Below the pieces are notes generated by a model. It searched no databases and was not told the DNA's origin. It was given only the letters and a program-made list of their open reading frames with translations. A DNA stretch of 64,000 bases, taken from Sphingomonas sp. EC-HK361 (GTDB lineage: Bacteria > Pseudomonadota > Alphaproteobacteria > Sphingomonadales > Sphingomonadaceae). The stretch lies in contig NZ_LR701493.1 in the NCBI RefSeq assembly GCF_902498785.1, positions 930,724 to 994,723 of the forward strand, written 5' to 3'. The position numbers and the translations under genes are program-made. How positions within the stretch are numbered: position 1 is the stretch's first letter; each line of letters begins with the position of its first letter. Positions 15,227 to 49,518 of this stretch are shown piece after piece.

Positions 15227-16350
15227 GCCTGCCACCCCGGCAGACGGATCGTCGCGATCGCCTGTGCGGCAATGCCTTCGCCGCGGCCGGTAAAGCCGAG
15301 CTTCTCGGTCGTCGTCGCCTTCACGCTTACGCGCTCCTCCGCGATATTCAGGATCGCCGCGATCCGCCGCCGCATCGCCTCGCGGTGCGGCCCGATCTTC
15401 GGCGCTTCGCACATCAGCGTCAGGTCGATGAACCCGATCTGGCCGCCCCGATCCCGCACCAGCGTGGCGGCATGGGCGAGGAACTGGTCGGACGCAGCGC
15501 CTTTCCACTGCGGATCGCTGGGAGGAAAATGCTGGCCGATATCGCCGGCCGCGATCGTGCCGAGCAGCGCGTCGGTGATCGCATGCAGCGCGACGTCGGC
15601 GTCGCTGTGGCCGGACAAGCCCTGCGTGTGCGGGATCAGGACGCCGCCCAGCCACAGCTCTTCGCCATCTTCGAGCCGGTGCACATCGAGGCCGCTCGCC
15701 GAGCGGGTTTCCCAGTCGATCCGCGCTTCCGCCACCGCGAAATCCTCAGCGTAAGTGATCTTTTCGAGCATGGGATCGCCCTGCACGAGCGCGATCGATC
15801 CGCCAAGCGCGCGCACCATCTGCGCATCGTCGGTGGCGTCGCGACCGGCGGGCCAGGCCGCATGGGCGGCACGCAAGACTTCGGTGCGGAATGCCTGCGG
15901 GGTCTGGATACGGTAGAGATCGTGCCGATCAACGAGCGTGCCGTCACCACGGCTGAGCGTATCGGCGACGGGAAGCGCCGGGACCGCGCCGTCGTCGATC
16001 GCGATCGCGGCGAGCAGCCGGTCGATGACCGCGCGCGAAAGGAGCGGGCGCGCCGCATCGTGGACCAAGACGCGCGCTGCATCCCCAGCCGCGTCCAGCC
16101 CCGCCCGCACCGAATCGAGCCGCGTCGCGCCGCCCGAAACGCTCTTCCATCCATCGGGCAGGCGGGCGGTTTCCTCCTCGGCTACGATGACGATGACGTC
16201 GTCGATCAGCGGATGCGATGCGAGCGCGGCATGGCTCCAGGCGATGACCGGGCGGCCGCCCAGCGTCTGGAACTGCTTGGGAACCGATCCGCCGGTGCGT
16301 TCGCCGCGGCCGGCGGCGACGATCAGGGCGACGGTCTTCGCGGAGGTCAT
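15223..16350 (-). CDS. ispDF: bifunctional IspD/IspF (MEP cytidylyltransferase / MECDP synthase)
   Basis: Fusion of two non-consecutive MEP-pathway enzymes, common in alphaproteobacteria; IspE (31515) supplies the middle step. 375 residues. The IspD half (1-220) shows [19 protein letters not shown] for CTP binding and the conserved [12 protein letters not shown]. The IspF half (about 221-375) shows the zinc ligands in SGLDVHRL and [20 protein letters not shown], and the C-terminal [21 protein letters not shown]. It is the first gene of a three-gene operon and divergent from dusB across 73 bases that must contain both promoters. Confidence 0.97.
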
Positions 16351-46654: not shown

Positions 46655-47395
46655 ATGCCATCACTTGAAAAGTCGCCCACGGGCGCCGTTCCCGTCACCA
46701 CGACCGTCAAATGGCGGTTCCCGACGGTCCATCCCGAAGGGCGTAAATACGTCTTCATCGCCGCCGGCCTGACGCTGCTCGCCACGTGGCTTACGGCCGT
46801 GCTGTTCTGGCCGATGGTCGGGCTGACGATCTGGGTCGCCGCGTTCTTCCGCGATCCGGTGCGCACCACGCCGCAGGGCGACGACCTGATCGTCAGCCCG
46901 GCGGACGGCCTCATCACCATGATCCAGAGCGTGCCGATCCCGCGGGAACTCGCCGGGCCCAATGGCCTCGGCGAAGGATCGCTGACCCGCGTCTCGGTGT
47001 TCATGTCGGTGTTCGACGTGCACATCAACCGTACTCCGATCGCGGGGACGATCACCCAGGTCGTCTATATTGCGGGCAAGTTCCTCAACGCCGATCTCGA
47101 CAAGGCGAGCGAGGAGAATGAACGCCAGCATATCGTCGTCGAGGGGCATGACGGGCGCCGTGTCGGCTTTACCCAGATCGCCGGTCTCGTCGCGCGCCGG
47201 ATCGTCGGGTTCGTGAAGCCGGGCGACATGGTCGCCAGCGGCCAGCGGATCGGCCTCATCCGCTTCGGCAGCCGCGTCGATGTCTACCTGCCCGAAGAGT
47301 TCGAGCCGCAAGTCGCACTCGGCCAGCGCGCGATCGCGGGTGAAACCGTGCTCGGCCGCATGGGCGGCAAGCCGGTTGCCGGCATCGCGCAATGA
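46655..47395 (+). CDS. psd: phosphatidylserine decarboxylase
   Basis: Makes phosphatidylethanolamine by self-processing to a pyruvoyl enzyme. 246 residues, the short (PSD-A) class: N-terminal hydrophobic anchor ([19 protein letters not shown], about 34-52), [22 protein letters not shown] with conserved Asp and His-region [16 protein letters not shown], and the cleavage dipeptide G205-S206 in [12 protein letters not shown]. It is coupled to pssA by ATGA overlap, so the two sequential PE-synthesis enzymes are co-translated. Confidence 0.97.
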
Positions 47396-48207
47396 TCCTG
47401 CCGGACGATCGCCGCGCTTTCCAGGTCTCGCGGCGAAATCCGCGCGGGCTTCCCCTGCGGGCGGTCGCGCCGAATGCGGTGACCGCGCTTGCCTTATGCT
47501 CGGGCCTGAGCGGCGTGCGCTTCGCGATCGGCGGCAAATGGGAGCTTGCGGTCACGATGGTGCTGGTAGCCGGCGTGCTCGACGGGCTGGACGGGCGAAT
47601 CGCGCGAATGCTCCACGGCGAGAGTCGCTTCGGCGCGGAACTCGACTCGCTGTCCGACGCGATCTCCTTCGGCGTCGCGCCGGCGCTGATCCTCTATCTC
47701 TGGTCGCTCTCGACCCTGCCGCGTTTCGGCTGGATGGCGGCGCTGATGCTCGCGGTCTTCTGTGCGCTGCGCCTCGCCCGCTTCAACGCGCAGATCGATC
47801 GGACGGAACAGCCGCACAAATCGGCCGGCTTCCTGACCGGCGTTCCGGCACCGGCGGGCGCGGGGCTTGCGATGCTGCCGATGTTTCTGTCGTTCTGGAC
47901 CGAAGAGCCGCTGCTGCGCAATCCGCTGATCGTGGCCCCCTGGACTGCAATCGTTGCGTGTCTCATGGTATCGAGCATCGCGACCTTTTCGTGGACCTCG
48001 ATGCGGCTGCGCCAGAACATCCGCTTCGAGGCGATCGCGGTAATCGTGATCGTGGGCGCGGCACTGGTGTCGGCGCCCTGGCACACCTTTTCCCTGCTCA
48101 GTGTGCTCTACCTCATCACGATGCCGTTCAGCATCGCGAGTTATGCGCGGATCAGGCGGCCTCGCGCAGGACCGTCGCCGGCCGCGACACCGCCGCCCAG
48201 CGCCTGA
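47392..48207 (+). CDS. pssA: CDP-diacylglycerol-serine O-phosphatidyltransferase
   Basis: 271-residue inner-membrane enzyme forming phosphatidylserine from CDP-DAG (made by CdsA at 52847). The CDP-alcohol phosphotransferase motif DG-x2-AR-x8-G-x3-D-x3-D appears as [20 protein letters not shown] followed by SLSD. About six to eight hydrophobic helices. The C-terminal Pro-rich tail ([14 protein letters not shown]) overlaps antisense the end of the 75-residue gene at 48152 by 56 bases. Confidence 0.96.
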
Positions 48208-48379
48208 CAGCGATCCGGCGCTCGGCCAGCACCAGCCCCGAAAGCGGCTGGAAGGTCTGCGGCGCGCGCCCGAACAACGCATCGGTAATACGATCGAGTT
48301 TGGGCGCAACCGTGGACCAGATCGCATAGGCCGAAAGACCAAATGCCCCACCGAATGCAACGAAAGCCAGGATTGCCAT
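48152..48379 (-). CDS. small single-span membrane protein, candidate SOS-induced factor
   Basis: 75 residues. Residues 2-24 (AILAFVAFGGAFGLSAYAI...) are a transmembrane helix; the rest is a basic soluble tail ([29 protein letters not shown]). GGGAGG 8 bases before the ATG is an excellent Shine-Dalgarno. About 150 bases upstream, on its own strand, a TTGACA promoter is interleaved with two GTTC-N7-GTTC LexA operators (48508-48546), which strongly suggests DNA-damage induction. By analogy with Caulobacter SidA and DidA or E. coli SulA it could inhibit division, but this is inference: there is no sequence similarity I can claim. The 3' end overlaps pssA antisense. Confidence 0.8.
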   Translation of the reverse strand: MAILAFVAFGGAFGLSAYAIWSTVAPKLDRITDALFGRAPQTFQPLSGLVLAERRIAVRRWAAVSRPATVLREAA

Positions 48380-48507
48380 TACGTTCGCCTCCCAAGGTCA
48401 ATTCGCGACCCGAGTGAGCCGCAAACACTTCATCGCAGGACAGGTTCCCGATTCGATCCGCGGAGCGGCACGGATTTCCGCGCCATTCCCGAGAAGCCAG
48501 TCACCGC

Positions 48508-48546
48508 GTTCCCGCTGTGTTCCCGCTATATGTTCCATCTATGTTC
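48508..48546. promoter_or_regulatory. tandem LexA (SOS) operators
   Basis: Two exact GTTC-N7-GTTC boxes: GTTC CCGCTGT GTTC (48508-48522) and GTTC CATCTAT GTTC (48532-48546), separated by 9 bases, so four GTTCC half-sites lie at 48508, 48519, 48532 and 48543. Read on the minus strand, box 48532-48546 lies just after the TTGACA -35, in the spacer, and box 48508-48522 lies at or just after the expected transcription start. Double operators of this arrangement give tight LexA repression. Confidence 0.85.
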
Positions 48547-48556
48547 CATCTGTCAA
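48525..48556 (-). promoter_or_regulatory. LexA-overlapped sigma-70 promoter for the 75-residue membrane protein
   Basis: On the minus strand a perfect TTGACA (complement of 48551-48556) is followed by CATATA after 18 bases or TATAGC after 20. A LexA box fills the spacer. Transcription would start near 48515-48520 and run through a leader of about 140 bases to the gene at 48379. Confidence 0.65.
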
Positions 48557-48589: not shown

Positions 48590-48693
48590 CGCGCCCCTCA
48601 ACCCCGCATGGGAAGCATCATAGCCCGGTGCGTCGGCGCGCAAGCGTCAGCGTCATCCGCTTCCCAGAGGCTCAACCGGAAGGATCTATCCCT

Positions 48694-49518
48694 ATGGCGG
48701 CACCTGTCGTCTCCATGCAGCAGCTCATCGAAACGGGCGCGCACTTCGGCCATCAGACGCATCGCTGGAACCCGAAGATGAAGCCGTATCTGTTCGGCGA
48801 CCGCAACGGTATCCACATCATCGACCTGTCGCAGACCGTGCCGCTCTTCGCGCGCGCGCTCGAATTCGTCAGCTCGACGGTCGCGTCCGGCGGGAAGGTC
48901 CTGTTCGTCGGGACGAAGCGCCAGGCGCAGGAACCGGTCGCCGACGCCGCGCGCCGCTCGGGCCAGCACTTTGTGAACCACCGCTGGCTGGGCGGCATGC
49001 TGACCAACTGGAAGACGATCTCGAACTCGATCAAGCGCCTCAAGACGCTCGAGGAGCAGCTTTCGGGCGACACGCACGGCCTGACCAAGAAGGAAGTGCT
49101 GAACCTGACGCGCGAGAAGGACAAGCTCGAGCTGTCGCTCGGCGGCATCCGCGATATGGGCGGCGTGCCCGACGTGATGTTCGTCATTGACGCGAACAAG
49201 GAAGAGCTGGCGATCAAGGAAGCCAACACGCTGGGTATCCCGGTCGTCGCGATCCTCGATTCGAACGTTTCGCCCGACGGCATCGCCTTCCCGGTTCCGG
49301 CGAACGACGACGCCGCGCGCGCCATCCGCCTGTATTGCGAGGCGATCGCGATCGCCGCGACCCGCGGTGGCCAGGAGCAGCAGCAGCGCCGCGGCGCCGA
49401 TCTGGGTGCGGCGGTCGAGCCGGTCGCCGAGGAAGCGCTGAGCGTCGAGACGCCGGTGGCCGACGCCCCCCAGCAGGCCGAGATGGCCGCCGAGGCCGAG
49501 CGCCAGATCGACGCGTAA
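48694..49518 (+). CDS. rpsB: 30S ribosomal protein uS2
   Basis: 274 residues. [20 protein letters not shown] at the N-terminus and [17 protein letters not shown] are hallmark S2 sequences; the C-terminal extension after about residue 225 is Gln/Glu/Ala-rich and variable, as in related species. GGAAGGAT lies 9 bases before the ATG at 48694; the frame is open upstream but without S2 similarity. rpsB-tsf-pyrH-frr is the classical order, here interrupted by a repeat element between rpsB and tsf. Confidence 0.98.

Follow-up and report, generated by a model that had tools for sequence, protein, structure and literature searches.

Two exact GTTC-N7-GTTC boxes lie between pssA and rpsB in Sphingomonas sp. 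EC-HK361, which raises the question of which gene they control and what its product might do after DNA damage. The locus was followed up in a window of 64,000 nucleotides (the whole stretch of DNA that was analysed). In window coordinates, its features are the following.

47392..48207, plus strand: pssA, CDP-alcohol phosphatidyltransferase (Pfam PF01066), convergent, its 3' end overlapping the small gene by 56 nt
48152..48379, minus strand: gene of a predicted 75-residue single-span membrane protein with a basic tail (open reading frame, homologous frames behind boxes, dN/dS)
48388..48393, minus strand: Shine-Dalgarno GGGAGG, read from the sequence, 8 nt before the ATG
48508..48522, no strand assigned: LexA operator 1, GTTC-N7-GTTC on the plus strand, near the putative transcription start
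48529..48534, minus strand: putative -10 element AACATA, taken from conserved columns and missed by the sigma-70 scan
48532..48546, no strand assigned: LexA operator 2, exact GTTC-N7-GTTC, in the promoter spacer
48551..48556, minus strand: -35 element TTGACA, read from the sequence; the consensus built from 115 regions has a TTGACA-like element at equal offset
48694..49518, plus strand: rpsB, ribosomal protein S2 (Pfam PF00318), the divergent neighbour

Operators and promoter between pssA and rpsB

The sequence-only reading described tandem operators on a minus-strand promoter with a perfect -35 element. Both boxes are indeed exact, and the TTGACA (48556 to 48551) is perfect. It also placed one box in the promoter spacer and the other around the start site, an arrangement that stands only if AACATA is the -10 element, a weak candidate. 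The sigma-70 scan found no full promoter, so the -10 element and the transcription start were inferred; AACATA (48534 to 48529) is the best candidate, being found at a constant place in 115 aligned regions. On the minus strand, the order would thus be TTGACA, the spacer with box 2, the weak AACATA and box 1 near the putative start, with a leader of roughly 130-140 nt ahead of the 75-residue frame. The window as a whole holds six exact GTTC-N7-GTTC sites compared to 1.69 expected, and at least six were found in none of 100 shuffles. The four other sites are at 16270, 19004, 24805 and 32350.

The identity of the motif was addressed in the genus of Sphingomonas jeddahensis, with 30 genomes in which LexA and RecA both score above the cut-offs. 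The motif lies at most 350 nt before the lexA profile match in 30 of the 30 genomes and before the recA profile match in 29 of them (counts made without a shuffled control). Its presence in front of both genes identifies GTTC-N7-GTTC, at the level of sequence, as the sphingomonad LexA operator.

Conservation was followed in the family of S. jeddahensis, which we take to be the Sphingomonadaceae. The rpsB gene was located in all 119 family genomes and its upstream region was analysed in 110 of them, leaving out nine (G101, G120, G022, G029, G074, G082, G060, G044 and G011). In 87 of these 110 regions, pssA is recognised upstream of rpsB, and 83 of the 87 gaps contain the exact operator, in a single orientation throughout, for 1.85 expected from shuffles. 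One more gap (L153) also has an exact box, missed by the script because the end of pssA was miscalled, and in the remaining three (L052, L103 and L138) the box departs from the motif at one position, which taken by itself is weak evidence. Within the genus, 29 new loci (L065-L093, taken from the 107 genus genomes that gave a match) had an exact operator in 29 of 29 gaps, for 0.55 expected. Across the 115 aligned regions, the place of the box is fixed relative to the TTGACA-like and ATA elements. The boxes are thus conserved across pssA-rpsB intervals, and the motif shared with lexA and recA, together with its recurrence in family and genus, argues for the proposed operator-controlled gene. This gene is almost certainly under LexA control.

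The literature searched contained no sphingomonad damage transcriptome. For Sphingopyxis granuli under anoxia, the SOS genes named include lexA, recA, radA, dinG, two imuAB-dnaE2 operons and SRAP genes (PMC6472365).

The small membrane protein gene

The 75-residue frame running from 48379 to 48152, with GGGAGG 8 nt ahead of its ATG, is present as claimed. Homologous frames were sought behind the boxes of 121 regions, a set that includes two duplicates (L035 of L002 and L067 of L003), the window itself and four named loci. A membrane ORF was found in 116 of the 121 regions, in comparison to 11 of 605 shuffles; when an ATG and a good Shine-Dalgarno sequence were also required, the numbers were 96 of 121 and 4 of 605. 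Three of the five missed regions (L037, L075 and L076) still have the ORF, with a hydropathy just below the cut-off. In L089, the wrong box was used as the anchor, and L153 (G059) keeps the exact box with an ORF of only 52 residues, in which the helix is intact and the tail mostly lost. The reading frame is therefore kept in relatives, as is the build of a single membrane span followed by a basic tail.

The 116 members are 69-111 residues long and share an N-terminal membrane segment. Ahead of the helix, 110 of them have an uncharged flank, and 114 carry a positive tail. From these charges, the basic Arg/Pro-rich tail is most likely cytoplasmic. AlphaFold2, run with 30 sequences, predicts a confident helix at residues 2-35 and a poor one at 46-63 (mean pLDDT 75.8, pTM 0.42). 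Taken together, the product is very probably a membrane protein.

Selection was estimated on the codons outside the pssA overlap, for 45 pairs passing the pS and pN filters. Among the 15 closest pairs listed, dN/dS is 0.00-0.14 in 14 and 0.29 in the remaining one, and it rises up to 0.69 in more distant pairs; the pooled pN/pS of 11 hand-picked pairs is 0.35. The ratios indicate purifying selection on the small gene in close pairs. In the alignment of 108 of 114 sequences (without L061, L078, L131, L132, L134 and L136), the mean column identity is 17%. Judged by its sequence, the protein evolves fast: its build is kept while its letters change. The operator, the position of the promoter and the coding frame are all supported by sequence and conservation.

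An exact-seed search of the genome contigs with the 75-residue protein returned no relative, owing to the fast evolution of the sequence, and relatives were instead reached via a PssA search followed by rpsB synteny. No Pfam or NCBIfam family matches more than one of the 108 members; the single-member matches, to two and five families respectively, were taken as chance. The window protein itself has no Pfam match at E 1, the SulA family (PF03846) included. The fold search gave no PDB match, and the sole match of a search against solved chains (E 0.15) was judged meaningless. Five members gave no match in PHROGs. At a threshold of E 0.1, a profile built from five members hit 101 of 298 genomes, mostly noise. 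Among 30 loci taken from these hits, 15 have both pssA and an exact box, one (L024) has the box only and 14 have neither. L024 was chosen among many weak matches (E 0.0054) and is credible because an exact box, a TTGACA and a Shine-Dalgarno sequence are all present. In the literature searched (open-licence papers, top matches), neither this gene nor any sphingomonad SOS division inhibitor is described.

Distribution, relocated copies and neighbouring genes

The ORF is found in each of the 87 family regions with pssA at rpsB, L037 being just under the cut-off and L153 short. Of the 23 regions without pssA, four have the gene at rpsB (L106, L127, L131 and L147) and five have it elsewhere. No convincing copy was found in the other 14, among which L063 offers only 263 nt upstream; the gene therefore falls short of being universal. 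Its family is present in most Sphingomonadaceae examined.

Eight copies do not lie directly beside rpsB. In six of them (L010, L012, L032, L262, L264 and L266), pssA still adjoins the gene, and in L024 and L265 neither pssA nor rpsB is found within 1.5 kb. An exact box precedes each of the eight by 50-180 nt; in L010, L012 and L032, this box is flipped and lies ahead of the -35 element. The copy of G054 is about 417 kb away from rpsB, those of G093 and G091 precede it by only about 2.7 and 4.8 kb, and those of G026 and G087 are on contigs other than that of rpsB. In G189, G232 and G273, rpsB was not placed. The sequences point to an operator that goes with the gene. Just 3' of the ORF, L024 and L265 have hairpins followed by T runs or stem-like repeats, as is expected of free-standing transcription units. 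Tandem paralogues occur in L268 (G072; 888-1169 and 1486-1779), where only the one farther from rpsB is preceded by an exact LexA box.

These copies bear on the reading that the boxes serve rpsB and that the ORF is spurious. The boxes are also upstream of the divergent rpsB, as this would require. However, in the five genomes with the gene elsewhere that were sampled at both places (G026, G054, G087, G091 and G093), rpsB has no exact box within 800 nt (631 nt in G026). The wider class also argues against it. In 28 of 108 class genomes with a match, 26 rpsB loci have no site within 1.5 kb upstream, and the two exceptions (L187, with a site at 128 nt, and L174, at about 1.1 kb) have no membrane ORF behind the site. 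With coding selection acting on the small gene as well, this reading is hardly credible.

On the other side of the gene, the ORF overlaps the 3' end of pssA in 111 of the 113 pssA-linked members tested. This overlap would suit an SOS transcript acting on pssA, in a convergent or antisense manner, or a protein acting on PssA, with phospholipid synthesis as the target. Against this, gene and operator persist away from pssA in L024 and L265, and the gene stands beside rpsB without pssA in L106, L127 and L131. Such a target appears quite improbable.

The overlap also shapes the end of the protein. Ala-Ala is the C-terminus of 101 of the 111 overlapping members, and in pssA-linked genomes the last codons and the stop are antisense to the PssA motif [IV][RK]R. 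The common Ala-Ala end of most members is therefore forced by the overlap with PssA. Among seven members without overlap, four end in AA (L106, L127, L265 and L268) and the others in RVA, NLA and ITL. The conserved Ala-Ala end resembles a ClpX-type degron signal, but given its antisense relation to the PssA motif, a degron is retained as no more than a possibility.

Two further elements were seen in the leaders of this region. The 5' leader of rpsB (window about 48600-48693, plus strand; 142 sequences) folds as a stem of 8-10 pairs in which compensatory changes are numerous. It has no Rfam match. A CCGG in its loop could pair as a pseudoknot with another CCGG just ahead of the Shine-Dalgarno sequence. 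It is probably an S2 autoregulatory leader. In the small-gene leaders, a DnaA-box-like TTWTNCACA occurs in 31 of 114, with 0.53 expected (the motif was seen before the test). It is in sense orientation in 29 of the 31, mostly 43-67 nt ahead of the start codon, as in L151, L108 and L124, and is absent from the small-gene leader of the window. On the rpsB side, it was counted in 3 of 114, for 0.9 expected. Either a DnaA site or an RNA hairpin could account for this element.

Comparison with SidA and a possible role in division

Small SOS-linked membrane proteins of other bacteria are the natural candidates for comparison. TisB of E. coli, a single-helix membrane peptide, has about 29 residues. 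It had been offered as an analogue of the small protein and fits poorly in size. DinQ, also of E. coli, is described as an SOS-linked single-helix membrane peptide (PMC3567139), like the predicted product of the present gene. A toxin of this type would lower the proton motive force through its helix and lead to dormancy. The small size and the LexA-controlled hydrophobic helix would fit such a function. Nevertheless, the sphingomonad protein is far longer than TisB; TisB and DinQ are shorter and lack the long basic tail, which is found in 114 of 116 members. A toxin of the TisB/DinQ type is therefore unlikely.

Several division inhibitors resemble the protein in other respects. In Gram-positive bacteria, YneA, SosA, ChiZ and DivS lie beside lexA and have domains of their own. 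The gene described here, in contrast, belongs to another phylum, has rpsB and pssA as its neighbours and encodes no Pfam domain. The four proteins are described as SOS-induced division inhibitors unrelated to SulA in PMC4211646. The same paper presents DidA of Caulobacter crescentus as a damage-induced protein of 71 residues with a single membrane helix. DidA is SOS-independent and activated by DriD, whereas the gene here has LexA operators; this comparison is one of descriptions only.

The closest parallel is SidA of Caulobacter crescentus (CCNA_02004 in PMC11034885), which PMC4211646 describes as an SOS-induced inner-membrane protein of 29 residues acting on FtsW. By these descriptions, both are LexA-controlled small membrane proteins with one helix, SidA in the inner membrane. 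SidA relatives were sought in the family of genome G684, which has the best match to the holdfast protein HfaA in a search where, among the named controls, only Caulobacter scored; this family is most likely the Caulobacteraceae. It has rpsB in 57 of 60 genomes, and 20 regions were examined. In nine of them, a membrane ORF of 29 residues lies 3.7-5.6 kb upstream of rpsB and is accompanied by a LexA box that is exact or has one mismatch. These ORFs are called SidA-like by length, box and helix, as distinct from letter-level identity with Caulobacter SidA. All nine lie directly before dnaE, which is found upstream of rpsB in 15 of the 20 regions (the identity of DnaE was confirmed by Pfam in L296).

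SidA-like genes thus stand one gene, dnaE, from rpsB, and the SidA comparison gains weight from this. Since they precede dnaE near rpsB, the gene order places the sphingomonad gene close to a SidA-like address, on the opposite strand and directly beside rpsB. SidA-like genes run with rpsB, whereas the sphingomonad gene runs against it. The proteins differ as well. SidA is far shorter than the 69-111 residues of the sphingomonad protein and has no basic tail, and hhalign of the 108 members against seven SidA-like peptides gave no similarity, in a comparison of low power at 29 residues. The charge bias of the sphingomonad protein is opposite to that of the SidA-like peptides; its uncharged N-terminus and basic tail predict a topology opposite to the one that those peptides suggest. 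The sequence-only interpretation is supported in part, with arrest of division or depolarisation of membranes as a proposed effect.

In the preferred reading, LexA would bind the GTTC-N7-GTTC boxes within and beside the promoter and hold the gene off. DNA damage would remove LexA and allow expression. The product would enter the inner membrane by its single N-terminal helix, with the basic Arg/Pro-rich tail probably in the cytoplasm, and would delay cell division through division proteins of the membrane, in the way that SidA acts on FtsW. This last step rests on analogy and on the nearly identical gene address. With LexA control, a small size, a single helix and a SidA-like address, a role as effector of a division checkpoint is the most likely one, held at close to even chances, and the explanation as a whole, a LexA-repressed membrane protein that delays division, is an even bet. 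SulA adds indirect support, PF03846 being above the cut-off in none of the 119 family genomes, with one weak match below it.

The main competitor is a LexA-controlled membrane regulator of another damage response (protease, respiration or envelope) that would leave division untouched. The regulation and the membrane anatomy fit it equally, and no sequence feature points to the divisome. The SidA-like address and the absence of SulA favour a role in division, only indirectly, and this competitor is less likely though to be taken seriously. A bolder version of the checkpoint reading is that, near the same rpsB address, a new SOS checkpoint family holds the post of SidA in Sphingomonadaceae, being either a SidA relative diverged past recognition or a non-homologous replacement. 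Its cytoplasmic Arg/Pro tail would give it the opposite topology, its Ala-Ala end would direct proteolysis and, in part of the family, the DnaA-box-like sites of the leader would tie it to replication. This combination is rather doubtful and is put forward tentatively.

Among small membrane proteins of the SOS response, the gene would thus define a new family, by analogy most likely one of division-checkpoint effectors. If the protein is a division inhibitor, the gap left by SulA would be filled by a membrane protein under LexA control that most of the family possesses. The nearly SidA-like address turns this into a testable question: are tiny SOS membrane inhibitors related, or are they repeatedly reinvented at favourable places? 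By analogy with SidA, a small, fast-evolving protein behind a DNA-damage switch may be the sphingomonad brake on division.
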